From NCBI GenBank assembly GCA_024231855.1, contig JAAEQD010000345.1, positions 1-64,000 on the forward strand: a stretch of 64,000 bases of DNA. The letters run 5' to 3'. Positions 4,935-53,762 of this stretch are shown in pieces. Numbering within the stretch: the first letter of the stretch is position 1; every line of letters begins with the position of its first letter. The notes beneath the pieces were generated by a model. The model was not told the DNA's origin and did no database searches. It was given only the letters and a program-made list of their open reading frames with translations. The stretch comes from Candidatus Zixiibacteriota bacterium (GTDB taxonomy: Bacteria; Zixibacteria; MSB-5A5; UBA10806; 4484-95). Position numbers and translations under genes: made by a program.

Positions 4935-7355
4935 ATGAATCCAAGCAAAAAAACGAAGATCACAGCTGATCTATTCGAGAGTCTACCCGGCAAACCTGTC
5001 TGGTATTATTTTTCACTTTACCTTATCATGGTTATTCTATTGTTTCGAGAGACGTTGTTCTCGCCCTCGAATTTTCTATACGGCTCCGACCTAATCGAGG
5101 CGGGCGGCGTGTTTTTCCGGACCATGCTTATCGACTATTTTCGCGTTCATTTCACCTGGCCGCTCTGGGATCCTTTCATTCATGGTGGTATGCCTTTCGT
5201 CGATGGCATGCACGGCGAAATATTCTACATGCCCAGTTTCATAATTTATATGATATTCAAGCTTAGCTTCGCCTGGGGTTTCATCCTGGCCTTGCATGTT
5301 TTCCTGGCCGGTATCTTTATGTATATGTTTTTAAAAGAAATCAAAATCCGAGGTATGGTGGCTTTTCTGGGCGGCTTGATGTATATGATGGCTCCGTTTT
5401 TAATCTCACTGGTTTACGCCGGGCATAATGGCAAAATATTTATTATCGCCCTGACTCCTCTCATTTTATTTATCTACCACCGGGCTTTCACCCGTACGAG
5501 CCTTTTCTATTATATTCTGCTGGCTATCATTATATTCTTAGGGATCACCACATCCCATATGCAGATGGCTTATTTTATGTTTTTCATGCTTGGCATATAT
5601 TTCATAACAACAACAATCCAGCGTTGGCGTCTCGATAAGATAAACCCGCTCAAACCGACATTGCTATTCAGCGCGGCGGTGGGCCTGGGCTTGATTATGG
5701 CGTCGATGCAATTCGTTACGCCTTATCAATATCTGCAAAAATACTCGATGCGTACTATTCGCACGCAAAGCGAGAACAAATATGAATACGCCACATCGTG
5801 GTCGATGAATTACGAGGAGGTCGGAGCTAATTTCTTTCCCGAATTTTGCGGCGACAATATTAAAGGCCAGCCGACTACATACTGGGGGCCGAACTATTTT
5901 AAACTCAATTCCGAGCATTTCAGTATCATTGCCCTGTTTCTGGCGATTCTTGGTATCGGTTTGTGGCAGCGTCGAGGTAAGTGGTTTTTCTTCTGGACCA
6001 TAGTAATAGCAACGCTCTACGCTCTGGGGGCCAATACGCCGGCATTTCGAATATTCTATTTAATACCGGGAGTAAAAAGTTTCCGGGCGCCTGGGATGAT
6101 AAATTTTCTTGTGGGTTTCTCGGCGATCACCCTTGCCTGCATGGGACTCGAGAGCTTCCTACAGGCTAAAAAATCTGATCAGACATTCAAGAAAACGTGG
6201 CGGATTTATACCTACATCAGCATCGGTTACTCCTTTATCGCTTTTCTTGTGATTATTTTGCAGATGGGATTTTTCAAGATCTGGTTCGCAATATTCGGTA
6301 CACCGGACGCGCAGAAAACGCAAGTATTGCAGATGGGACTGGATACGATCACGATTGGAGCGGTTATTAGTCTGATCGCCGTTTTGGGCCTTTATTTCCT
6401 CTTGAAGTTCTATCGCGACAAGAAAATCAAGGCCGGCTTGATTATTACCGCCCTGGCCTTATTCACGATCATATATATGTGGTATTTTAATTCAAGGTAT
6501 TTCATATCTTTTGATCCGCGGTCCAACTATGCTAAAACCCCGGTCGTTGATTTCCTGCAATCCAAACAGGCCGAGGAGCAATTTCGGGTATTTGTGATGC
6601 CCCAAACTTTAAGAGATTATTATCTGGCATATCATGGTATCGAGGAGCTCTCGTTTACCATTCTCCATGGCAATCATTTGGCCACGTTCGAGAAGTTGGC
6701 CGGTCAAAGGGCGCCTATGGCTGGTCTGATTTATCAGCCGATTCAGGATTTGTTAAACGCCAAATATATTGTCAGCGCTCAACAACTTCCACCGCAGTAT
6801 TTCAAGCCGGACAGATTCAGGATGATTAAAAGAGCCGGTAATCTTTTAGTTTATGAAAACCTGACCGCTCTGCCCCGCGCTTTTCCCATGTATCGCTATA
6901 CCGTTATCGAAGATGAAGACAGGATTATCGCGATGCTCAGCGATACGACATTCGATTACAGATCGACGGTAATTTTCGAGGAGATTCCGGATAATCCGCC
7001 GCCAGACTATGATGATTCGCTCCAATTCGCGGTAGTACCGGCAAGGATTTTCGACAGCGAGCTCAACCAATTCAGAGTCGATGTAGAAATGATCGAGGAT
7101 GGTTTCTTATTCCTAAGCGAAAACTACTACCCTGCCTGGCGCGCTTATGAAAACGGGAATCCTCTGACAACACTCAAAGCGAATTATAATTTCAGAGCGA
7201 TTCCATTGAAGAAGGGCAGTCATACTATCGAGTGCAAATTCGAAAATAGCACATACACAGCGACGTTCGCTATCAGTAAAATCACTTTCATTCTAATGCT
7301 TCTAGGCTTGATCGGACTTGCAATTAAGGACAGAATCGGGCGGCCGAAGGATTAA
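4935..7355 (+). CDS. YfhO-family multi-pass membrane protein
   Basis: About 806 aa. An N-terminal half with roughly 12 membrane segments is followed by a large extracytoplasmic region and a last membrane segment near the C-terminus (FAISKITFILMLLGLIGLAI). This matches the bacterial YfhO family, GT-C-like proteins linked to lipoteichoic or other envelope glycosylation. Hallmarks include YGSDLIEAGG near the N-terminus and ENYYPAWRAYENG near the C-terminus. The ORF track starts at TTG 4923, but GGAG (4925-4928) lies 6 nt before ATG 4935, so I use 4935. Sugar and acceptor are unknown. Confidence 0.8.
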   Translation: MNPSKKTKITADLFESLPGKPVWYYFSLYLIMVILLFRETLFSPSNFLYGSDLIEAGGVFFRTMLIDYFRVHFTWPLWDPFIHGGMPFVDGMHGEIFYMPSFIIYMIFKLSFAWGFILALHVFLAGIFMYMFLKEIKIRGMVAFLGGLMYMMAPFLISLVYAGHNGKIFIIALTPLILFIYHRAFTRTSLFYYILLAIIIFLGITTSHMQMAYFMFFMLGIYFITTTIQRWRLDKINPLKPTLLFSAAVGLGLIMASMQFVTPYQYLQKYSMRTIRTQSENKYEYATSWSMNYEEVGANFFPEFCGDNIKGQPTTYWGPNYFKLNSEHFSIIALFLAILGIGLWQRRGKWFFFWTIVIATLYALGANTPAFRIFYLIPGVKSFRAPGMINFLVGFSAITLACMGLESFLQAKKSDQTFKKTWRIYTYISIGYSFIAFLVIILQMGFFKIWFAIFGTPDAQKTQVLQMGLDTITIGAVISLIAVLGLYFLLKFYRDKKIKAGLIITALALFTIIYMWYFNSRYFISFDPRSNYAKTPVVDFLQSKQAEEQFRVFVMPQTLRDYYLAYHGIEELSFTILHGNHLATFEKLAGQRAPMAGLIYQPIQDLLNAKYIVSAQQLPPQYFKPDRFRMIKRAGNLLVYENLTALPRAFPMYRYTVIEDEDRIIAMLSDTTFDYRSTVIFEEIPDNPPPDYDDSLQFAVVPARIFDSELNQFRVDVEMIEDGFLFLSENYYPAWRAYENGNPLTTLKANYNFRAIPLKKGSHTIECKFENSTYTATFAISKITFILMLLGLIGLAIKDRIGRPKD

Positions 7356-7374
7356 GAATTAATTAAAATCCCTG

Positions 7375-7403
7375 AAAAAAGCCGATCCTGATCGGGATCG
7401 GCT
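7375..7403 (-). terminator. Intrinsic terminator for the CorC-YbeY-PgpH-PhoH run
   Basis: Read on the minus strand, AGCCGATCC and GGATCGGCT form a perfect 9-bp stem followed by a T6 run. It lies about 28 nt after the corC-like stop codon. On the plus strand there is no T-run, so it mainly serves the minus-strand operon, although it also lies just after the yfhO-like stop. Confidence 0.8.
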
Positions 7404-7430
7404 AAAATTCATTAATATACCAATCGCGTA

Positions 7431-8348
7431 TTATATGAGTTGTTCACCTTTTTTGTGCTCTGGCGAAAGTTCGACACCAACTCGAGTAATACGTTGGCCT
7501 ATAATTTTTATGGCGGTGAATTTAAGGCATTGGTAGTCGACCGTTACTCCCTGGTCGGGCAGACCGCCGACGATATCATAAATTACGCCGCCAACCGTTT
7601 CGAATTTATCCTCGGGAAGAGCCAGATCAAGTTCCTCGTTAAGTTCCGAAATCGGCAGACTACCCTTAACCGTGAAATGTGTTTCATCGATTTTCTTAAT
7701 AATCGGATCATCAAGATCGTACTCATCCTCTATTTCGCCGACGATTTCTTCGAGTATGTCCTCCAAAGTAACCAGGCCCGCCGTGCCGCCATATTCATCG
7801 ACTACGATTGCCAGATGCACTTTCTGCTTTCTCATCTCTTTGAGCAGCTCGGAAACATTCTTGGTTTCAGGTACGAAAAATGGGGGTCTGGCCTTGGTAT
7901 CAACAAGCTCATTCGGATCGGTAACGCTGTCGATGAATATATCCTTGATATAGAGCACGCCCTTTATCTCGTCCAGCGATTCGCCGAAAAAGGGAAACCT
8001 GGAATGGCCGTGTTTTTTTACTAATTCAATTACATCACGGATCGGGGTCCCTTCCTCAATACCAACCATATCAACCCTGGGAACCATAATTTCTTTAACC
8101 GTTGTCTGGGCCAGATCCACGATGCCGTGGATCATATCTTTGGCCGATTCCTCGAGTAAATCATCTTCGGTTGATAGTTGACTTGAGAATTCCTCAATCG
8201 ATTTTTCGATAAAAGCGTCCCGTTGGCTTGGAGAAAGCCGAGAGTCGGATTCCGGGGAAAATTGTTTTAGAAAATTTTTCAGCGAATGTATTAAACCGGA
8301 TCGCTGATCATCTCTACTGGGGGGCTCAGCGCCGTCTTTTGGTTCCAT
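7431..8348 (-). CDS. CBS-domain CorC/HlyC-type transporter-associated protein
   Basis: 305 aa. After an acidic N-terminus come two CBS domains (TVKEIMVPRVDMVGIEEG, then the region around FFVPETKNVSELLKEMR). The CorC_HlyC domain is C-terminal (about residues 215-290, VKGSLPISELNEELDLALP ... FETVGGVIYDIVGGLPDQG). VVDEYGGTAGLVTLEDILEE is a family hallmark. There is no DUF21 membrane domain, so this is the soluble CorC type linked to Mg/Co handling and envelope integrity. The gene overlaps the end of ybeY by 23 nt and closes the operon before a terminator. Confidence 0.85.
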   Translation of the reverse strand: MEPKDGAEPPSRDDQRSGLIHSLKNFLKQFSPESDSRLSPSQRDAFIEKSIEEFSSQLSTEDDLLEESAKDMIHGIVDLAQTTVKEIMVPRVDMVGIEEGTPIRDVIELVKKHGHSRFPFFGESLDEIKGVLYIKDIFIDSVTDPNELVDTKARPPFFVPETKNVSELLKEMRKQKVHLAIVVDEYGGTAGLVTLEDILEEIVGEIEDEYDLDDPIIKKIDETHFTVKGSLPISELNEELDLALPEDKFETVGGVIYDIVGGLPDQGVTVDYQCLKFTAIKIIGQRITRVGVELSPEHKKGEQLI

Positions 8349-42235: not shown

Positions 42236-43750
42236 TTAAGGTTTTATGGCCTTATGCAGTGTCCTACTGCCCCTCATAACTAAAAACAGAATCGATTTTT
42301 CGCGATCTTTTAAATCGTAGGCTATATTAAAGAATTCATCACTGGTCTCGACCGGCCGGTGATCTATTTCAATAATCAAATCTCCGCTAAACAGTCCACC
42401 GTCATCGGCCGGGCTGGCCGGTTCGACGCTTTCGATTATCACCCCGGGTTCGAAATCGATGTTCATCCTGGTGGCCCTATCTCGGGTGAATGTGGCTGGT
42501 TTAATCCCCAACCAACTGTCTCGAGTTTCGGTTTCACCCGGAGTAGAGGCAACATTAAGAAAATCACTTCTATTGCCCAGTGTAAACTCCAGATCCTTAT
42601 AATCGCCTTCTCTATTTACTTTCATCGAGATATCTTTGCCCGGCCCGGCATCGGCAATAATGAATCGGAATTCCTGCGCGGAGGCCACTTTCCGGCCATC
42701 TACTTCGACAATAACATCGCCCATTTCCAGGCCGCCATCTTCGGCCGGCGAATCCTCTTCCACAGATTCAACCAGAACACCCTCTGCGTCACTGAGATCA
42801 AGCGCTTCGGCCAGATTGTTATCAATATCGCCAGGTAATATTCCCAGCCAGCCGCGGGAAATAGAACCGGAGTCTTTAAGTTCTTCAGCGATTTTTTTGG
42901 CCAAATTTATCGGAATCGCAAAGCCTATGCCTACATTTCCGCCGGATGGCGAAACGATTGCTGAATTAATACCGACAACTTCACCGCTTAAGCCTACCAG
43001 AGGCCCACCCGAATTCCCCGGATTAATCGAAGCATCTGTCTGAATGTAATTTTGATAGATCGGATTATCCGGCCCAAAAACCAGGCCGCTGCGCCCTAAA
43101 GCCGATATAACACCTATAGTTACAGTTCTATCCAGGCCTAATTGCGGGAATGGGTTACCAACCGCGATCGCCCAATCACCGACTAAAATCGAATCGGAAT
43201 CACCCAATTCCAGATACGGCAGCTCCTCATCGGTATCGATCTTGATTAAGGCTACATCGGTTTCCGCATCCGAGCCAATTACTTCAGCTTTAAATTCCTG
43301 AGTATCAGATAATCGAACGATAATATCGTCGGCATCCCGTACAACATGGTTATTGGTCAGAATATAACCATCTGCACTTATAAAAAATCCCGATCCAAGT
43401 GGTTCGCTTCGGCGCATCTTGGGTTCATCGGGGGTTTGTGGCGGAACTCCGAAGAATCGACGCCAGATATCGTCATCGAAAAACGTATGAAATTTGTCTT
43501 CCACCATACTTTTCGCGGAAATATTTACGACCGCCGGCTTAACCTTTTGGGCTACATAGACAAATGGCGAATGGTGTGTATTGGGGTCCATATAATAAGA
43601 TGAAACCGGAGGGGCTGTATTGTCAGATTTATCCTGAGCCACCAGATCATTGGAGCTATAATTAGAGCCAATAACCATCCCCATTAGCATAGCAATACCG
43701 GCTATCAACATCACCGTAAACAATCCTTTTATCTGACCCATTCTTTTCAT
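42236..43750 (-). CDS. DegP/HtrA-type periplasmic serine protease with two PDZ domains
   Basis: 504 aa. N-terminal membrane/signal segment (LFTVMLIAGIAMLMGMVIGS). The catalytic triad is His135 (ILTNNHVV), Asp165 (ETDVALIKI) and Ser247 (NPGNSGGPL). Two PDZ domains follow: RGWLGILPGD... (about 300-385) and SWLGIKPATF... (about 410-500). This is the Do/DegP architecture for periplasmic protein quality control. GAGGG precedes the ATG. It lies head to head with a second HtrA gene 411 nt away. Confidence 0.92.
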   Translation of the reverse strand: MKRMGQIKGLFTVMLIAGIAMLMGMVIGSNYSSNDLVAQDKSDNTAPPVSSYYMDPNTHHSPFVYVAQKVKPAVVNISAKSMVEDKFHTFFDDDIWRRFFGVPPQTPDEPKMRRSEPLGSGFFISADGYILTNNHVVRDADDIIVRLSDTQEFKAEVIGSDAETDVALIKIDTDEELPYLELGDSDSILVGDWAIAVGNPFPQLGLDRTVTIGVISALGRSGLVFGPDNPIYQNYIQTDASINPGNSGGPLVGLSGEVVGINSAIVSPSGGNVGIGFAIPINLAKKIAEELKDSGSISRGWLGILPGDIDNNLAEALDLSDAEGVLVESVEEDSPAEDGGLEMGDVIVEVDGRKVASAQEFRFIIADAGPGKDISMKVNREGDYKDLEFTLGNRSDFLNVASTPGETETRDSWLGIKPATFTRDRATRMNIDFEPGVIIESVEPASPADDGGLFSGDLIIEIDHRPVETSDEFFNIAYDLKDREKSILFLVMRGSRTLHKAIKP

Positions 43751-44161: not shown

Positions 44162-45496
44162 ATGAGGATTGTACTTACCATTATTTTCGGATTAGCTATC
44201 TCGATTTCACCGGCTTTCGGCCAAGGCCTTCAGATTTTCGATGACTTGCAGGAATTGATAATATCGGTTTCGGAGGCCGTAAAGCCAACTGTAGTCCATA
44301 TTGAGGTGGTCAAGAAGCATAATAGTCAGCGCTATGAATCACTTGGTTCGGGTTTGATTGTCAGTGACGACGGCTACATCATTACAAACGAACATGTTGT
44401 AGATAAATATGTCTCGGTTAGAGTAACACTCGAATCTAAACTTGAATATCCGGCGGAAGTTATAGGCACCGATAAATTGACAGATATAGCTCTGCTAAAA
44501 ATCGATGTTCCTCCCAGCGAGAGCTTCAAGGTTGCCAGGCTGGGTAATTCCGATTCCGTCCAGGTTGGCGAATGGGTATTGGCAGTCGGTAATCCTTATG
44601 GTTTCGATCGAACTGTGTCATTCGGGATCGTATCCGGAAAGGGCCGGACATTAAACCTTCCCAATAACGCGCCCTTATTGAACGATTTTATACAGACCGA
44701 CGCGGCTATCGATCCGGGTTCTTCGGGAGGCCCTCTGGTTAATCTGCGAGGTGAGATTATTGGAATCAATTCGATTGGTGTCGGCCGGATGCAAGGATTC
44801 ACGATTCCGATTAATATCGCGATCGATGTCATGGACAAACTGCTGGCCACCGGGAAAATCGATCGTGGGTATATCGGGATCGTCGTGCAACCGCTCAATA
44901 GAAGCTATGCCAAATATTACAATCAACCCGATTTACAGGGCATCGTTATCGGCGATGTATTCAAAGACCATCCCGCGGATAAAGCCGGTATCAAACCGGG
45001 TGATATAGTCACATCCTTCGATGGTCAAGAACTTTCCGCCGAGAATGAAGATGATTTGACCAAATTCACCCTTGATATTTCACAGTCCAAGATTGGCGAA
45101 AAGAAAGAAGTTGAAATATTCAGAGATGGTAAAACCCGCAAAGTTTCGGTTAAGATCGGTCAGAAGCCAAAAGTTAAACCGGATGAATATGAGACCGAAT
45201 TGGATTTCACGGTTGAAGAAATCACCGAGCATATGTTTCGAAGTTATCTTCTGCAATCTCGGGATGGCGTTTATGTCAGGTATGTTGAAGTCGGTTCGCC
45301 GGCCGATAAAGGCAACTTGTATGCCGGCGATGTGATTATCAAAGTTGGCGATAATGAGATCAAGAACCTGGAAGATTTCAAGAAAACCATGCAGGAAATA
45401 GGTGAACCGGAATTTTTAATGCTTCGGGTACTACGAGGCAAAGACTTCGCTTTTGCTTTATTGGATTTCACGGAAACCGAATGGGAGTCTGAATAG
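44162..45496 (+). CDS. HtrA-like trypsin/PDZ serine protease
   Basis: 444 aa with a signal peptide (LTIIFGLAISISPAFGQ). The triad is His78 (IITNEHVV), Asp108 (LTDIALLKI) and Ser188 (DPGSSGGPL); the residue before the catalytic Ser is Ser rather than the usual Asn. Two PDZ-like regions follow, RGYIGIVVQPLN... and FRSYLLQSRDGVYVRYVE... It lacks the lengthy N-terminal insert of its divergent neighbour. Likely a second periplasmic quality-control protease. Confidence 0.9.
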   Translation: MRIVLTIIFGLAISISPAFGQGLQIFDDLQELIISVSEAVKPTVVHIEVVKKHNSQRYESLGSGLIVSDDGYIITNEHVVDKYVSVRVTLESKLEYPAEVIGTDKLTDIALLKIDVPPSESFKVARLGNSDSVQVGEWVLAVGNPYGFDRTVSFGIVSGKGRTLNLPNNAPLLNDFIQTDAAIDPGSSGGPLVNLRGEIIGINSIGVGRMQGFTIPINIAIDVMDKLLATGKIDRGYIGIVVQPLNRSYAKYYNQPDLQGIVIGDVFKDHPADKAGIKPGDIVTSFDGQELSAENEDDLTKFTLDISQSKIGEKKEVEIFRDGKTRKVSVKIGQKPKVKPDEYETELDFTVEEITEHMFRSYLLQSRDGVYVRYVEVGSPADKGNLYAGDVIIKVGDNEIKNLEDFKKTMQEIGEPEFLMLRVLRGKDFAFALLDFTETEWESE

Positions 45497-45606: not shown

Positions 45607-46071
45607 TTAATAGTCGGCGGCCAATTCGATGCTATCCAGTTTGATAATCATAGCTTCGACCGAACTCAGGTTTGCGTATGCCCTGAGCTGCTCGCGGGTT
45701 AAAACCGCCCGCGCTTTTGTAATAGCCTCAAGTTCAAGCGATTTCAATTCGGCCAGGAATTTATAGTATTCCTTGATAATGTGATCCGAGGCCGTACTAT
45801 GCATGTTGGTCCAATTAGAGGTAAACTCATCAATTTCCATCTTTCTGATTTCGGCCTGGGCTCTGGTTTGAATCATCTTTTCAATAATTACATTGTTGAT
45901 GATGCTTAATTTTTTAAACTGTGAATCGGTCAATTCAAGTCCCGTTTTGTGATCCAGGATGCTATTAATAGCTGTCTGAGGAATCTTGCTTCCGGCATAC
46001 AACAATCCCGGTGAGGCGATTATCATAACCAGCGCGAATACCAGCGCTACTATCGTTATTTTTTTAGACAT
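45607..46071 (-). CDS. Spy/CpxP-like small periplasmic protein
   Basis: 154 aa from ATG 46071, preceded by GAAGGAG; the track ORF starts further upstream at 46140. Signal peptide (ITIVALVFALVMIIASPGLLYA), then all-helical sequence with LELTDSQFKKLSIINN and VLTREQLRAYANL, which echo the LTxxQ motifs of Spy/CpxP chaperone-like proteins. It is clearly a paralogue of the next gene (IPQTAINSIL versus LPQTPINQIL). Likely periplasmic chaperone or metal sensor, inferred. Confidence 0.7.
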   Translation of the reverse strand: MSKKITIVALVFALVMIIASPGLLYAGSKIPQTAINSILDHKTGLELTDSQFKKLSIINNVIIEKMIQTRAQAEIRKMEIDEFTSNWTNMHSTASDHIIKEYYKFLAELKSLELEAITKARAVLTREQLRAYANLSSVEAMIIKLDSIELAADY

Positions 46072-46510
46072 GTTTACTCCTTCGTTAAGGATATTAATAC
46101 CCTGTTTTAATTCCTTAGGTTTTTTGAAGAGCCAGTTCAACCGAAAATAATTTTCAGGTTGTTGAAGTTTAAGGTCGGCCGACTAACCTTCAAACTTCTT
46201 CTTATGCTCTCCCTTGTTGCCTTTTGCCTAAATACGGAATCCAGGTATTAAGGTTTCATTATTTATGACAATTATATTAATCATAATTACAAAATTTAAA
46301 CATCGAAGGAATTCGCCAGGGTCTAGTCGCTTGAATCCCAGGCGACTCAATCAAGTGTCTTTTTTCCAGGTAGAATTTCACAATTAATAAATCTGATAAC
46401 ATATGGTAATAGATTTCAGATTTATTGAATTAGTCGATAGTATTACAAAAAATCCCCGGAGGGGAGACGCCGGGGATTCCAGGAGAAAAAAGACGTGAAT
46501 TATTGTATAT
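46072..46510. other. 439-nt gap between the two Spy-like genes
   Basis: It holds a long imperfect hairpin (GAAGTTTAAGGT at about 46165-46176 pairs with ACCTTCAAACTTC at about 46186-46198, one bulge), a shorter AGTCGC-N11-GCGACT inverted repeat at 46325-46347, and the terminator below. No gene is supported. The large hairpin may be a leader structure for the Spy-like gene. Confidence 0.45.
46451..46478 (-). terminator. Terminator of the second Spy-like gene
   Basis: AATCCCCGG (46451-46459) and CCGGGGATT (46470-46478) form a perfect 9-bp stem; on the minus strand it is followed by a T6 run. It lies 32 nt after the stop codon. Confidence 0.85.
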
Positions 46511-46969
46511 CTAAAACGCGCCTATTTTTTCGGTATTCATATCCTTCATAGCCAACTCTACAGAGAGTAGTTCGCTGAATTTATCAACCTGTTCTTTCGA
46601 TAGAATTTTACCCGCTTGCACCAGGGCTTCGAATTCAAGGTTTTTCAAATCAGCCAGGCAATTATAATAATCTTTGACCGTGCTTTTGAATTTGGGATTA
46701 CTCATATCGTCCCATTTCGCCGAATATTTGTCGATTTCGCCCTTAAACATCTGGGCTTTGCCTTTGATTTGAAGCATCTTGTTGATAATGCCATTATTAA
46801 CCCGATTCAGATTCTTTATCTGTGAATCGGAAAGCATCAAACTGCTTTTATTTTCAAGAATTTGATTTATCGGCGTTTGGGGAAGGTTGCCGGCGATGGC
46901 TATACCGGTTACGCCAATTATAGCGACCATCGAAATCGCGATGATATAAATTGTCTTTTTCGTTTTCAT
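46511..46969 (-). CDS. Spy/CpxP-like small periplasmic protein (paralogue)
   Basis: 152 aa. Signal peptide (TIYIIAISMVAIIGVTGIAIA), then helical sequence with LMLSDSQIKNLNRVNN and ILSKEQVDKFSEL. Aligns along its length with the downstream gene, so the pair arose by tandem duplication; the two have diverged considerably. AGGAG precedes the ATG. Each copy has its own terminator, so they are probably transcribed separately. Confidence 0.7.
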   Translation of the reverse strand: MKTKKTIYIIAISMVAIIGVTGIAIAGNLPQTPINQILENKSSLMLSDSQIKNLNRVNNGIINKMLQIKGKAQMFKGEIDKYSAKWDDMSNPKFKSTVKDYYNCLADLKNLEFEALVQAGKILSKEQVDKFSELLSVELAMKDMNTEKIGAF

Positions 46970-47755: not shown

Positions 47756-50122
47756 TTATCTTAAAACCTCACGACCGCTGCCTGAAAAGAGATCGAGCAC
47801 CGCTCCGCGAACTTCATCCGGGCCGGCAGCGCCTATATTAACCTGATAGCATTTGCACTTTTCGAACATGCGCCGATAGAATCGTTTCTGTTGCTCATGC
47901 CTATCAGTAGTTCTGGTCAGAATATAAGGATTGAAAAAGGGGTGGCTGGTCGCCGATACGGCTTGAGCCGGCGGTCTTCCCTCTTCTAAAACGCGGAGAG
48001 CCTGATCGGGCGACAGCTCTTCGGAGACAGGCCCGAAATGATCGTTTTTAAATAATACAATGGTTTCAACCTGGGCGCGTTTGACATGCTTTTCGGGACC
48101 GCCCAGCCAGTACGGATCGAGCATAGCCCGCGATTTTTCCGAGGCGGTAAAACAGTATGGTTCGCCCCTGTCGAGATCGCATTCTCCACTGTAATGACAG
48201 TCCTGGTTTTCACACATATCTTTAGAGGTCACCACGTTTTCACATCTACATCTCTCCAGAAGCGGTTTGGCGGCCGGGTATTTTTCGATAAAATCCGTGC
48301 GCATGAAGAATTTTCGCTCGATGCTTTCGGCTAAAACGCCCGCGCCGCTTAAGCGCACCAAAGACAGATCGGGGCTGATTATTTTCGACGGGCCATGGCT
48401 TATAAGCCCGGCCAGATGTGTCGACTTACCGGAAGCCGGCGGGAAAAAGAACAAAGCCCCACTACCGGCGATATCGAATCCGGCGGCATGAACGGCCAGC
48501 GAGTTGTAGAGTTTTTCAGAGATATCAGAAACGATTCCCATGGCCAGACTTCTCAACTGAGGATAGAAAGCCGAGTTAAAAAAGAATGCCGTATGAGATT
48601 CGGAACTGTAATAGGCACGCGGCTCACGACCGGTTATTCCTTTGACAGCATAAATAATACCATGGGGTTCAATCTCAGCTTCGAGTTCGGCCGGATAGAA
48701 ATTATCCACCCAGAAATCGTAGAGATGGGGACTATTAGTACGAAGCTGCAAAACCGCTCCGGCGATATTCACATTCCATTCGTAGTAGTTATCATGCGTG
48801 AAACTGTTTTCCGATTCCGCTACCAGGGCCTCCCGCATATCGAGGTTTATACCCGTTTCGATTTCGACGAAGTTTTGTTGTTTGGTGACAGTATTATTCA
48901 GCGCTTTACCTATGGCTTTACGGGATGGCGTTAGCCTGGCCAAAGCATCGGATACCCTGCTTAAGCCCTCATCGATTCTGTCCATGGCCGCGGCGTAGGA
49001 AAATCTGAGATAGCCCTCCATGCCAAAAGCATCACCGGGTATAATCGCCACGTGGGCTTCTTTCATCAGGTAGTAGGCCAGGCCATAAGAGTTGCGTATA
49101 GACTGACCGTTGAACTCTTTATCGAAATACGCTTCGAAATTGGGGAAAAGATAAAACGCTCCTTGCGGCTGGGGACACGATACACCTGGTATCGACCTTA
49201 ACCGAGACAGAGCCAGATTTCGTCTTCGCTGGAATTCATAAACCATTTTTTCGATATCGAGCTGCGGCCCGTTAAGCGCCTCTATTGCCGCTTTCTGGGA
49301 AATCGAGCAGGCATTGGAGGTGTTATGGCCCTGAACCATATTCATACCGGCAATGATCTCTTTAGGGCCGGCGGCATAGCCGAGCCGCCAACCGGTCATC
49401 GAATAAGCCTTGGACACGCCATTGATAATAACGGTTATATCCCTGGCTTTGGGCAAAACCGAGGCGGCGCTATAGAATTTGAATCCGTCATATACCAGCT
49501 TTTCATAAATCTCATCTGCGATAATAACAATGTTTTCCGAGATGGCGATTTCGACAATTTCCTCGAGTTGATCGCGGGTATAAGCCGCTCCGGTGGGATT
49601 ACTTGGATTATTCATAAACAGGCATTTAGTCCTGGGAGTAATTGACTGGGCGAAATCCCTGGGAGTCATCAAAAAACCGTTCTCCTCGAGACAGCGAACA
49701 TAAACCGGCGTGCCCTTGGCAAGATTGACAAAAGCCGGATAGGACACCCAATAAGGCGAGGGAATAATCGCCTCATCGCCTTTATTAAGTATAGCCGTAC
49801 ACAGGTTGAACAGACTGTTTTTAGCGCCGGTAGAAACGATTATTTCCTTGGGGCTATATTCCAGGCCGTTATCATCATGAAGTTTCTTGATTATTGCCTG
49901 TTTCAACATCGGGATGCCATCATTAGCGGTATAGTGAGTAAAATTCTCTTCAATCGCCTGCTGGCCCGATTTTTTTATATTTTCCGGCGTGGGGAAATCC
50001 GGTTCGCCGATTGAGAGATCGATAACATCGACGCCCTCAGCCTTGAGCTGTTTGGCTTTGGCCGAAATTCGGAGAGTGGCGGATTCGCCTATTCGCTGTA
50101 ATCTATCTGCTAAAAAACCCAT
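47756..50122 (-). CDS. Aspartate-type aminotransferase fused to a PEPCK/HprK-like P-loop domain
   Basis: 788 aa in one uninterrupted frame. Residues 1-395 are a complete class I PLP aminotransferase: SIGEPDFPTPENI, TGAKNSLFNL, NNPSNPTGA, the PLP Lys in NGVSKAYSMTGWRLGYA (about 238), and the C-terminal Arg in YLRFSYA. Residues ~415-788 are unlike any aminotransferase: LYNSLAVHAAGF, then a P-loop-like FFPPASGKST (559-568, K566), IISPDLSLVRL, and eight Cys (625, 627, 637, 642, 648, 657, 756, 758). The P-loop and its setting recall HPr kinase/PEP carboxykinase-type folds. Flotillin precedes it by 5 nt, and a PEPCK gene lies further off. Substrate of the second domain unknown; it could be a regulatory kinase or a sensor. 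Confidence 0.75.
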   Translation of the reverse strand: MGFLADRLQRIGESATLRISAKAKQLKAEGVDVIDLSIGEPDFPTPENIKKSGQQAIEENFTHYTANDGIPMLKQAIIKKLHDDNGLEYSPKEIIVSTGAKNSLFNLCTAILNKGDEAIIPSPYWVSYPAFVNLAKGTPVYVRCLEENGFLMTPRDFAQSITPRTKCLFMNNPSNPTGAAYTRDQLEEIVEIAISENIVIIADEIYEKLVYDGFKFYSAASVLPKARDITVIINGVSKAYSMTGWRLGYAAGPKEIIAGMNMVQGHNTSNACSISQKAAIEALNGPQLDIEKMVYEFQRRRNLALSRLRSIPGVSCPQPQGAFYLFPNFEAYFDKEFNGQSIRNSYGLAYYLMKEAHVAIIPGDAFGMEGYLRFSYAAAMDRIDEGLSRVSDALARLTPSRKAIGKALNNTVTKQQNFVEIETGINLDMREALVAESENSFTHDNYYEWNVNIAGAVLQLRTNSPHLYDFWVDNFYPAELEAEIEPHGIIYAVKGITGREPRAYYSSESHTAFFFNSAFYPQLRSLAMGIVSDISEKLYNSLAVHAAGFDIAGSGALFFFPPASGKSTHLAGLISHGPSKIISPDLSLVRLSGAGVLAESIERKFFMRTDFIEKYPAAKPLLERCRCENVVTSKDMCENQDCHYSGECDLDRGEPYCFTASEKSRAMLDPYWLGGPEKHVKRAQVETIVLFKNDHFGPVSEELSPDQALRVLEEGRPPAQAVSATSHPFFNPYILTRTTDRHEQQKRFYRRMFEKCKCYQVNIGAAGPDEVRGAVLDLFSGSGREVLR

Positions 50123-50127
50123 GAGAC

Positions 50128-51552
50128 TTATTCGCTTTTACCGTCGGTTTCAACATCATTATCTGATTTACCATCGGTCAGCCTGTGTAAGATTTTAGTA
50201 AGATCGACACCTGAAAGACTCTTGACGACTTCGGGAAGTTGGGCCATCACACCGGCAACCTGGCCGGTAATCTTCGAGGCGCCATCCGCGCCATTACCAA
50301 CCATGATAATTTTATCGACCTTAGACAGCGGCTCGGACACCGATTTGGCCAGTTCCGGTAAGACATCGATAAACATCTGATAGATAGCGGCCTCATTATA
50401 CTTGGTCCAGGAGGCCGCTTTTTCGGCCATCGCCTGAGCCTCTGCTTCGCCCTGGGCTTTGATAACTTCGGCCCTGGCCAACCCTTCATGTTTGATAGCC
50501 AAGGCCTTACCCTTGGCGGCGGCCCCCAGCCTGACGCTTTCACCTTCAGCTTCTACTTCCTTTTGATACTTCATGGCATCAGCGGCTTTTTTAATCGTCG
50601 ATTCGAGTTCTTTTTCTTTGCGGACAATTTCTTTATCTTCGAGTTTAATTGACTGGTCTTTTTCGATAAGTCTAACTTCGTATTCTTCTTTCTTAAGCAG
50701 TTGGTTCATTTTCAGACGTTCGAGATCATACGCTGAATCAGCTTTAGCCCGTTTCTGGTTAATACCGGCTTGATGGTCGGCGCGTTCCAGTTCGTAATCG
50801 CGGCTGGCCTGAGCGATTTCGGCTTCGGCCTTAAACTTGGCGATATCGCCCTCTTTACGAGCTTCGGCCGACTTGATGGTCGCCTCTTTATCGGCCTGAG
50901 CCTGGGCGATCTCAGCCTCGCCTTTGATTCGGGCGATGTGAGGTTTACCCAGGGCTTCAAGGTATCCCTGTGAATCGGATATCTCCTTTAAAGAGAAAGA
51001 AAGAATAGTCAGTCCCATCGCGTCGAATGATTTTTTAGCCATTTTCATAACATTGGCGGCAAACTCATCCCGGTTCTGGTAAATATCTTCAACCGTCAAT
51101 GATCCCAGTATACCCCGCATGTTACCCTCAAGAATTTGCTGGGCGATTTCGTTCATGCCCGACAAGCCCTTGCTTAGAAACTGCTCGGCGGCCATTCTTA
51201 TTGAATAGTCATCGCCTTTTACTTTAACTTGCGCCTGACCGACAGCTCGAAGTTCAATACCTTTGGCGGTCAAGGCATCCTGGATTTCTATATTAAGAGT
51301 AAATACTTCCAGGGGCAGAATATCGGCTCGTTCGAGAAATGGCTTCACCAGGGCTCCCCCGCCAACACTCATCCGATAGCCGATTTTCCTTTTGGTGCCA
51401 TCGGGATCTTCGATAGTTCGGCGTCTTCCGCCAGAAATAATTAAAACCTGATTAGGGCCGACCTTGCGGTACTGTCTCGACAAGGCTATAAAAAACAGAA
51501 CCAGCAGTACAATTGCCGCACCGATTATTATAATCCATCCAACCACTGTCAT
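50128..51552 (-). CDS. Flotillin-like membrane-associated protein
   Basis: 474 aa. An N-terminal membrane segment (WIIIIGAAIVLLVLFFIALS) is followed by an SPFH/Band 7 domain (VGPNQVLIISGGRR ... LTILSFSLKEISD, about 30-195) and a long Ala/Glu/Lys-rich coiled coil (about 200-400, KGEAEIAQAQADKEATIKSAEARKEG). The C-terminus has IIMVGNGADGASKI. This is the FloT/YuaG architecture, scaffolding functional membrane microdomains. AAGGAG precedes the ATG. It directly precedes the aminotransferase-kinase fusion (5 nt gap). Confidence 0.88.
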   Translation of the reverse strand: MTVVGWIIIIGAAIVLLVLFFIALSRQYRKVGPNQVLIISGGRRRTIEDPDGTKRKIGYRMSVGGGALVKPFLERADILPLEVFTLNIEIQDALTAKGIELRAVGQAQVKVKGDDYSIRMAAEQFLSKGLSGMNEIAQQILEGNMRGILGSLTVEDIYQNRDEFAANVMKMAKKSFDAMGLTILSFSLKEISDSQGYLEALGKPHIARIKGEAEIAQAQADKEATIKSAEARKEGDIAKFKAEAEIAQASRDYELERADHQAGINQKRAKADSAYDLERLKMNQLLKKEEYEVRLIEKDQSIKLEDKEIVRKEKELESTIKKAADAMKYQKEVEAEGESVRLGAAAKGKALAIKHEGLARAEVIKAQGEAEAQAMAEKAASWTKYNEAAIYQMFIDVLPELAKSVSEPLSKVDKIIMVGNGADGASKITGQVAGVMAQLPEVVKSLSGVDLTKILHRLTDGKSDNDVETDGKSE

Positions 51553-51902: not shown

Positions 51903-53762
51903 ATGAGCGATATTTATAATGTAGAAGAGTATCAGCGGTTCGCCGACAACCTGAAGGCTGCCTTGAGCGGGCCTAATATCAAGCATTACAAACATAAACA
52001 ACTCCGCAAATACGCCCTCGAATCCGGGCGGCAAACCAGTAACGGCGCCTGGGCCTGGCGATCGATGGTATCATCCAGAATTGGCCCCAAGACGGTTTAT
52101 CTTGGCAGTGAGAAAGTCAGGCTGCCTAAGCCATCCGATTTACATCAAACGATTATCGAAAAAGCTCCGGATGAGCTTCATAAAGTCTTGCATCTTCTAA
52201 GGACAATGCCTTTCATCCACTTACGCCGTCAGATGGGCAATAATTCCGAGTTTAATCCGATTTGCAATCTTTACGTTAGCGTTGCCGATCGTAAAAACTA
52301 CCGCCTGGCCTACATGTGGGGCAATACGATGTTCGATCCGGGCAAGCGACCCGGGCCGGAATTCACCATGATTCATATTCCGGAGGAACATCAGCTTCGC
52401 CAACAGGTTCTGGCCATGCCTGAACATAACATTAATATCGCCCTGGGCACTGATTATATGGGTGAGGATAAAAAAGGAAATCTTCGCCAGGCGATGTGGA
52501 TCGCCGATCAACAAGGCATGCTGGGGCTTCATGCCGGCACCAAGATTGTCACCGCCTGGGATCAAAAAGACAATCGCCTGAAGCGGTACGGGGTGTTTCT
52601 GTTTGGATTGTCGGCTACCGGCAAATCCACCTGGTCTTGTCATCAGTTAGGTCTTGATCATAAGAAAAGGGAAGGCACGGAAGTCGCGCAGGATGATATC
52701 GTATTTTTGCGCAAAGACGGTTCGGCTTATGGTTCTGAAGCGAATTTCTTCGTTAAAACCGATGTCCAGCGTGAATTACAGGAGGCGATGTATTGGTCTC
52801 TGACCGATAAAACCGCGTTCTATGAGAATGTCATGATCGATTCCAACGGCAATCCCGAGTTTCTCGATGAATCGCTCTGCGGCAACGGCCGAGCGGTTAT
52901 TCGTAAAGATAAACTTCGCGTAAAAAGAGGCCGCCGGTTAGTCAGGATCGATTCACCGGGAGTGAATTTACCGCCTCTGACGGAACTTGACGGTATAATC
53001 TTCGCCTTTATCACCCGGCGAAATACGATAATGCCGTTTAGCCAGATACTTACCCCCGAGCAGGGAGTGCTGGCTTACCTATGGGGTGAATCATCGCACA
53101 GTATGGCTACCCAGCCGGCTAAAGCGGGCGAATCGGTTAGAACGGTCGGAACCGATCCTTTCATCATTGGCTCGCAAGCGGCCAAGGTTAACAGATTTCA
53201 TGAAATCGTCATGAATCTGGTCGAAAATAATCCCGGCAAAGTTCATTTCTGTCTGTACAACACCGGAGGTATCGGTGAGATCATCGAGACCAGCGAAATT
53301 GGCGGCAAGAAGGTCAAAAAGATGGTACGCAAAGTTACCCGGGTGCCTATTGAGGTTATGTCGGCAATCCAGCGAGGCGATTTCCGGGGAACGAATCAAT
53401 ATGCTCCCGGACGGCTTGGGACACTGGAGATCAAATCGTGCGTCGATACGGCGTTGGATCAGTATAGCCCGGACAAATGGTATTCAAAGGATCAGATCGA
53501 TTATTATATTAATGATCTGGTCGACGGCCGGCGCCAATATACCGAGTTTATCGCCGGACAGGGATTGAACAATGAGATAATCAATGAAGCCGAAAAGTCA
53601 TTTGCTATCGCCGGTGATAAAAAATCTAAAGTGGCGGTTCCGGATATACCCGAAGAAAAGCCCAAAGACGATGATTCCAAATCCTCACGTTCCGAGCTAC
53701 CCGACCTGAAATGGGAAACCAAATCCCGACCTCGGCGGTCGCGCCTGGGACGGTACAAATAA
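51903..53762 (+). CDS. ATP-type phosphoenolpyruvate carboxykinase family protein
   Basis: 619 aa. The PEPCK P-loop is FLFGLSATGKST (233-243), followed by the metal/second-phosphate region VAQDDIVFL and a YGSEANFFVKT region that aligns with the PEPCK kinase-2 end (EGGCYAKT in E. coli PckA). A GLHAGTKIVTAWD region sits just upstream of the P-loop. The C-terminal ~50 residues are basic and disordered, ending RRSRLGRYK. It would convert oxaloacetate and ATP to PEP for gluconeogenesis. Length exceeds the typical ~540 aa, so a divergent PEPCK-like kinase is also possible. Confidence 0.75.
   Translation: MSDIYNVEEYQRFADNLKAALSGPNIKHYKHKQLRKYALESGRQTSNGAWAWRSMVSSRIGPKTVYLGSEKVRLPKPSDLHQTIIEKAPDELHKVLHLLRTMPFIHLRRQMGNNSEFNPICNLYVSVADRKNYRLAYMWGNTMFDPGKRPGPEFTMIHIPEEHQLRQQVLAMPEHNINIALGTDYMGEDKKGNLRQAMWIADQQGMLGLHAGTKIVTAWDQKDNRLKRYGVFLFGLSATGKSTWSCHQLGLDHKKREGTEVAQDDIVFLRKDGSAYGSEANFFVKTDVQRELQEAMYWSLTDKTAFYENVMIDSNGNPEFLDESLCGNGRAVIRKDKLRVKRGRRLVRIDSPGVNLPPLTELDGIIFAFITRRNTIMPFSQILTPEQGVLAYLWGESSHSMATQPAKAGESVRTVGTDPFIIGSQAAKVNRFHEIVMNLVENNPGKVHFCLYNTGGIGEIIETSEIGGKKVKKMVRKVTRVPIEVMSAIQRGDFRGTNQYAPGRLGTLEIKSCVDTALDQYSPDKWYSKDQIDYYINDLVDGRRQYTEFIAGQGLNNEIINEAEKSFAIAGDKKSKVAVPDIPEEKPKDDDSKSSRSELPDLKWETKSRPRRSRLGRYK

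Follow-up and report, generated by a model that had tools for sequence, protein, structure and literature searches.

A class I/II aminotransferase fused to a putative HprK/PEPCK-superfamily domain, conserved with flotillin and PEPCK-like genes across a bacterial class

HprK and PEPCK are established relatives within the P-loop proteins, and flotillin is a membrane scaffold in the bacteria in which it has been studied. Stand-alone aspartate and prephenate aminotransferases, such as those of PDB entries 6f77, 6f35 and 1j32, are chains of about 390–475 aa without a tail. In contrast, the protein analysed here has about 390 residues more. Its gene lies in a window of 64,000 nucleotides (the whole stretch of DNA that was analysed) from a Candidatus Zixiibacteriota genome, next to genes for a flotillin and a PEPCK-like protein. 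The fusion gene, its aminotransferase domain (AT) and its C-terminal domain (CTD) are located as follows.

47756..50122 (−): AT-CTD fusion gene, 788 aa, with an ATG start and an open frame
48938..50122 (−): residues 1–395, predicted PLP-dependent aspartate aminotransferase domain (AT), from PF00155, NF004769, PDB 6f77 and motifs
49409..49411 (−): Lys238, by homology the PLP Schiff-base lysine of GVSKAY
47759..48925 (−): residues 400–788, probable HprK/PEPCK-superfamily domain (CTD), from HprK_rel_A, hpr-ser, Foldseek and hhalign

The minus-strand frame at 47756–50122 contains neither an internal stop nor a frameshift, and the domain borders fall at about residues 1–397 for AT and 400–788 for the CTD. 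The Aminotran_1_2 model (PF00155) spans residues 32–381 (E 1.2e-77, 262 bits versus a gathering threshold of 19.7), while NF004769 (aspartate transaminase) matches the N-terminal part with an E of 2.5e-129 and 431.6 bits, under its 617-bit cutoff. The top PDB match of AT is 6f77 (AspAT A, E 1.5e-110), and aspartate and prephenate aminotransferases make up its nearest curated families and PDB entries. At AT residues 235–249 the motif reads GVSKAYSMTGWRLGY, and the lysine is present in every row of the alignment that covers this site. The motifs at 171, 200, 235 and 371 are retained across the relatives wherever covered; the lysine of SKAY, DEIYE, NPSNPTG and the arginine of LRFSYA occur family-wide and supply the PLP Lys, the Asp, the Asn and the carboxylate-binding Arg of a class I/II enzyme. 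The N-terminal half is for certain a class I/II aminotransferase. Judged by its residues it should be catalytically complete, and from its closest families we infer specificity for aspartate. This single 788-aa frame, with its PF00155 match and intact motifs, bears out the first-pass annotation of the locus, which had described a complete PLP aminotransferase running into a second domain without a frameshift.

The second domain is far more remote from known families. Residues 400–788 alone gave zero Pfam matches over cutoff and zero PDB sequence matches, and PF01293 found no sequence match on the CTD. Sub-threshold similarity to HprK models nevertheless recurs: TIGR04352 (HprK_rel_A) matches the window CTD with an E of 3.5e-4 (19.8 bits versus a cutoff of 200), TIGR00679 (hpr-ser) matches four of five scanned CTD members with a best E of 5.5e-6 (11.5 bits versus a cutoff of 240 for the window CTD), and PF07475 matches two of the five but not the window CTD. 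In a separate whole-genome scan PF07475 also matches over the fusion of genome G010 (E 4.1e-4). None of these three curated HprK cutoffs is reached by the CTD. The PDB profile search placed HprK 1ko7 on top, marginally (E 0.009); Toprim matches in the same search (E 0.04) were treated as chance.

Structure prediction was carried out for two different lead sequences from an input alignment of six rows, and both AlphaFold models are poor, with mean pLDDT of 52 and 54. All 50 Foldseek matches listed for each of these low-confidence models are PEPCKs, the best E values being 2e-7 and 4.4e-10. Since the TM-scores are only about 0.3–0.4 and the rmsd about 9–16 Å, the matches were taken as superfamily evidence only. 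In profile–profile comparison with hhalign, the CTD aligns to a stand-alone relative from family f11 with a probability of 99.9 (E 5e-31), and this relative aligns in turn to the canonical PEPCK core with a probability of 56 and 31% identity over 54 columns. Because HprK and PEPCK are kin, the sequence line and the structure line agree, and these several weak but concordant lines suggest that the CTD is a remote P-loop domain of the HprK/PEPCK superfamily. The PEPCK/HprK-like assignment made at first pass is thereby upheld by the recurrent HprK-model matches and the PEPCK-only Foldseek listings; the structure prediction proposed alongside it yielded PEPCK matches, but from poor models.

Three further features lie within the CTD, and residue counts for them are based on an alignment of 34 CTDs.

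48419..48448 (−): residues 559–568, FFPPASGKST, P-loop (Walker A) with the first Gly lost
48152..48250 (−): residues 625–657, Cys-rich insert (C625, C627, C637, C642, C648, C657)
47849..47857 (−): residues 756–758, lineage-specific CxC, with Cys in 3/34 CTDs at 756 and 5/34 at 758

The PPASGKST of the window CTD occupies residues 561–568, and two P-loop glycines are absent from its FPPASGKST; the combination of an intact Walker A GxxGxGKS with DD is absent from this CTD. A Walker-A GK[S/T/A] is present in 11 of the 34 CTDs, including that of the window, and these 11 form one branch, clade A (families f1, f2, f4 and f5; support 99/97). In the 21 members of clade B (f7, f9, f12, f15, f18 and f19) the P-loop is of the PKGxKRG[S/T] type or similar, for example PKGLKRGST, and it is also altered in L035 and L036, two relatives from public genomes. 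At the second acidic motif, clade A includes members with DD, the window CTD reads P-D (SPD) and the 21 clade B CTDs read N-D. At the site of the metal-binding Lys213 of PEPCK, a Mn ligand together with His232 and Asp269, 33 of 34 CTDs have S, N, A or T and only L036 has Lys; the PEPCK His site holds His in 4/34, and the HprK His is mostly Arg. With the AT motifs kept, GK left in 11/34 and the metal Lys in 1/34, selection holds the chemistry of AT and not a kinase chemistry of the CTD. In most lineages the CTD is thus retained for something besides kinase chemistry; nucleotide binding by the window CTD is possible. A natural series is also seen within the CTD family, in which the P-loop is canonical in the stand-alone relative, decaying in the window and lost in clade B. 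The rest of the domain is strongly conserved, and the series may represent a kinase-type fold becoming a pseudoenzyme while attached to an active enzyme.

The stand-alone relative is a protein of about 575 aa, encoded at 6420–8144 of locus L093 (genome G017) and at 6642–8378 of L094 (G031), where it adjoins ABC-transporter-type genes. It carries a canonical APTGTGKST together with SDDW and is possibly an active form of the domain.

The window CTD has cysteines at 625, 627, 637, 642, 648, 657, 756 and 758, as the first-pass annotation had described in proposing that eight clustered cysteines could hold a metal or cluster. The pattern is present, but it is not conserved as a set. Among the 34 CTDs, Cys625 occurs only in the window sequence, and near-universal cysteines are limited to C627 (33/34), C648 (30/34) and C657 (32/34). 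C637 and C642 vary together, both being Cys in the same 13 CTDs (clade A, L035 and L036) and both gone in the other 21. An eight-Cys cluster as a functional unit was rejected on these grounds, and the candidate metal or cluster site is reduced to a core of four to five cysteines in 13/34. In those 13, C627/C637/C642/C648/C657 would be compatible with a structural metal site, a pattern that shared ancestry alone could also give. A Trefoil match over the Cys-rich stretch (E 0.05, under gathering) was regarded as composition-driven.

The distribution of the fusion was searched in 133 genomes of the same phylum. The CTD was detected in 42 of them, 40 with the fusion family and two (G017 and G031) with the distant stand-alone protein. 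The fusion frames are about 780 aa long where the contig is complete, and their second domains are 35–69% identical. Carriers on single-contig genomes include G005, G007, G071, G072, G073 and G118. Named relatives from public genomes come from Zixibacteria MAGs, apart from L035, which is from a Latescibacterota MAG, and L036, from an unclassified one. No second carrier was found besides L035 among 80 genomes of its phylum, which argues for transfer or misbinning and against the module having another home there. Conservation of the fusion extends across a bacterial class, and the presence of the same fused frame in 40 of 133 genomes marks it as no chance feature and excludes the earlier concern that it might be unique to one assembly; the searches proposed at that time, for the same fusion and for stand-alone copies, returned these 40 genomes and the two distant proteins, respectively.

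Two neighbouring genes of the window belong to the conserved set.

50128..51552 (−): FLOT, flotillin/SPFH protein, ending 5 bp before the fusion gene (PF01145, PF15975, NF058507)
51903..53762 (+): PCKL, divergently transcribed PEPCK-like protein, 619 aa (PF01293, NF006821)

FLOT matches PF01145 (SPFH/Band_7) with an E of 8.7e-24 (85 bits versus a gathering threshold of 23.6), PF15975 (Flot) with an E of 1.1e-6 (29.2 bits versus 27) and NF058507 (FloT) with an E of 8.5e-112 (374.6 bits, under the 700-bit cutoff). The distance from the end of the flotillin gene to the fusion ranges from −4 to 42 bp in the 24 distinct genomes with room to show it; G006 is an exception in which flotillin is missing. 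This flotillin subtype is present in 37 of the 40 fusion genomes and in four others. The PCKL gene is divergent from flotillin in the window's family (G000, the window's assembly, and G002), L035 and L036; in f7, f9, f12, f15, f18 and f19 all four genes are codirectional, running flotillin, fusion, NDK, PCKL. The extra NDK gene between the fusion and PCKL belongs to one clade; the cluster of the clade that includes the window has none. A second NDK is found in 22/40 fusion genomes versus 3/93 others, and the catalytic NxxHGSD is retained in 12 of 12 operon NDKs. Gene order is stable across genomes though the flanking genes differ. Flotillin and PCKL track the fusion over 28 genera in a patchy distribution, and the pairwise distances of AT, CTD, FLOT and PCKL correlate (Spearman 0.72–0.90).

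Several observations concern the surroundings of these genes. In G011, PTS enzyme I- and HPr-like genes (L080, 1577–3620) lie about 2.4 kb from the flotillin–fusion operon and are absent from the other neighbourhoods read. In the window, two small proteins of secreted appearance, paralogues with 39% identity (45607–46140 and 46511–46969, both minus strand), are encoded between the fusion and a pair of genes for related HtrA-type proteases of 35% identity in divergent orientation (42236–43750, minus strand; 44162–45496, plus strand). A search for defence systems with PADLOC gave no meaningful match.

PCKL matches PF01293 with an E of 6.6e-23 (81.6 bits versus a gathering threshold of 26.5) and NF006821 with an E of 3.5e-83, under cutoff; none of the NCBIfam PEPCK cutoffs is reached. 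All 12 PCKL sequences compared retain residues equivalent to Y207, K212, K213, H232, K254, D269, K288 and R333 of E. coli PEPCK. At the Arg65 position, where the surrounding region aligns poorly, all 12 have F, N or Y, and D268 aligns to Q in an ambiguous alignment. Given the changed Arg65 and the missed NCBIfam cutoffs, oxaloacetate and PEP are no more than candidate substrates of PCKL. With a presence threshold of E ≤ 1e-60, PCKL occurs in 37 of the 133 genomes, and all of these carry the fusion (37/40 fusion genomes versus 0/93 others, G005, G006 and G008 being the carriers without it). The Fisher p for this near-perfect co-occurrence is 9e-30 by genome and 2.5e-21 by genus, both of which ignore the tree. 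PCKL is unlinked from the fusion in G003, G004, G007, G010, G011 and G033, and families f2, f4 and f5, like G003, have it elsewhere in the genome; that unlinked PCKL still co-occurs with the fusion argues for function over simple linkage. An origin of the CTD as a duplicate of PCKL was also considered and rejected, since hhalign aligns the P-loop segment only (probability 38.6) and the two are at most distant cousins, not recent duplicates.

Canonical PEPCK is also present in most fusion carriers, with two copies in the window's assembly, and canonical HprK is encoded separately in 126 of 133 genomes, the window's included, so the module adds to these enzymes and does not replace them. The two canonical PEPCK genes of the window's assembly lie about 51 kb apart on contig C366, the contamination estimate for this assembly being 8.5%. 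A further divergent PEPCK type, a protein of about 600 aa scoring about 99–114 bits over profile positions 4–299, was seen in G016 and G050 (f10) and in G046, G054 and G130–G132 (f16), genomes with no strong canonical PEPCK.

Combined, these data lead us to favour, tentatively and with rather less than even confidence, a flotillin-anchored aspartate/oxaloacetate(/PEP) module in which an active AT and its superfamily CTD work with PCKL, the CTD being a largely non-catalytic docking or nucleotide-sensing part. AT would catalyse the reversible reaction Asp + 2-oxoglutarate <-> oxaloacetate + Glu. The CTD, derived from a P-loop kinase-type fold, would be enzyme-degenerate in most lineages and at best a nucleotide binder in the window protein, with a mainly docking or regulatory role. 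The fusion would work with the separate, divergent PCKL and, in one clade, with the dedicated NDK, which would handle nucleoside triphosphates, while the dedicated flotillin would anchor the set at the membrane. Oxaloacetate made by AT would be handled locally, most simply by exchange with PEP. The fusion and its conservation, the residue patterns with the loss of the P-loop, the operon order and the co-occurrence are observations, whereas we infer the physical complex, the membrane anchoring, the action of PCKL on oxaloacetate/PEP and the role of the CTD. The changed Arg65 and missed NCBIfam cutoffs of PCKL, the additional canonical PEPCK, the three fusion genomes without PCKL (G006 being without flotillin as well), the NDK-less window clade, co-occurrence statistics that ignore shared ancestry and the poor AlphaFold models count against this module. 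The idea that the domain acts as a sensor for nitrogen metabolism, put forward at first pass, is possible, but the neighbourhood favours aspartate–oxaloacetate–PEP chemistry on a flotillin platform over a nitrogen regulator. A bolder form, which we consider rather unlikely, is a flotillin-organised assembly in which the pseudo-HprK/PEPCK domain of AT captures the divergent PEPCK and the dedicated NDK at the membrane, channels aspartate/oxaloacetate to PEP and recycles nucleotides locally, as a bacterial metabolon of lipid-raft type with a pseudoenzyme domain at its base.

That the CTD is instead an active HprK-like protein kinase/phosphorylase, responding to energy state and targeting PCKL, flotillin, HPr or AT, is unlikely. 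The HprK-model matches, with PF07475 over the G010 fusion, fit such an enzyme, as do the GK[S/T/A] of 11/34 CTDs including the window's (several of them with DD), the fully canonical APTGTGKST and SDDW of the stand-alone relative and the PTS enzyme I/HPr-like genes 2.4 kb from the G011 flotillin gene. However, 21/34 CTDs have a destroyed P-loop and those of L035 and L036 an altered one; the window CTD shows P-D in place of D-D and is short of two P-loop glycines; and most members carry Arg at the HprK His site. No HprK cutoff is reached, and canonical HprK already exists in 126/133 genomes. The active kinase of the first-pass annotation is weakened by the same GK count, by the rarity of DD and by the replacement of the metal Lys in 33/34.

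A signalling or membrane-stress device, in which PCKL is a kinase and AT/CTD its client or a metabolite sensor without oxaloacetate/PEP flux, appears improbable. In its favour, PCKL retains the P-loop and the metal residues while lacking the Arg65 substrate site, and flotillin genes outside the module adjoin PspC-like genes, as judged by eye. On the other hand, the Y207, K212, K213, K288 and R333 equivalents of PCKL fit PEPCK and not protein kinase chemistry, and the catalytic residues of AT are retained throughout.

It is also quite improbable that the genes are chance neighbours inherited together, with the CTD appended to a housekeeping aspartate aminotransferase for solubility or oligomerisation. 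Vertical inheritance would account for part of the co-occurrence, whose statistic ignores the tree, and three fusion genomes lack PCKL; yet in 28 genera flotillin and PCKL go with the fusion in a patchy distribution, even where PCKL is unlinked, and the gene order outlasts changes in flanking genes. Finally, an assembly or binning artefact or a one-off fusion can be dismissed almost entirely despite the 8.5% contamination estimate of the source MAG, because the same architecture recurs in 40/133 genomes and its presence on single-contig genomes excludes assembly error.

All parts of the module come from known superfamilies, while the architecture and the module themselves appear undescribed: we found no description of the combination in the open-access papers searched, an absence that is weak evidence. 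A flotillin operon with defined central-metabolism proteins would make the recruitment of flotillin clients directly testable. If the module interconverts aspartate, oxaloacetate and PEP, it would provide a spatially organised route apart from ordinary PEPCK.

In comparison with the stand-alone aminotransferases 6f77, 6f35 and 1j32, the N-terminal half matches over its full length and has the catalytic residues. FLOT likewise resembles the bacterial flotillin FloT (NF058507, PF01145/PF15975) over its length, but differs in its sub-cutoff NF058507 score and in its linkage to the fusion operon. With HprK (TIGR00679, TIGR04352, PF07475), the CTD shares the core order HGxxVDxxGxGxLxxGxxGxGKS...DD of the 1ko7 alignment; unlike HprK, it is fused to an aminotransferase, its core is preceded by some 130 additional residues and followed by a Cys-rich insert, and its P-loop and His are degenerate in most members. 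The ATP-dependent PEPCKs (PF01293; 1ayl, 1oen) are the top structural matches of both AlphaFold CTD models, and TSYYGQLKS..HGACV..GTGKSTSS of the stand-alone relative aligns to TSYAGETKK..MHCSAN..GTGKTTLS of PEPCK. By contrast, the metal ligand K213 of PEPCK is absent from 33/34 CTDs, and H232 is usually missing too.
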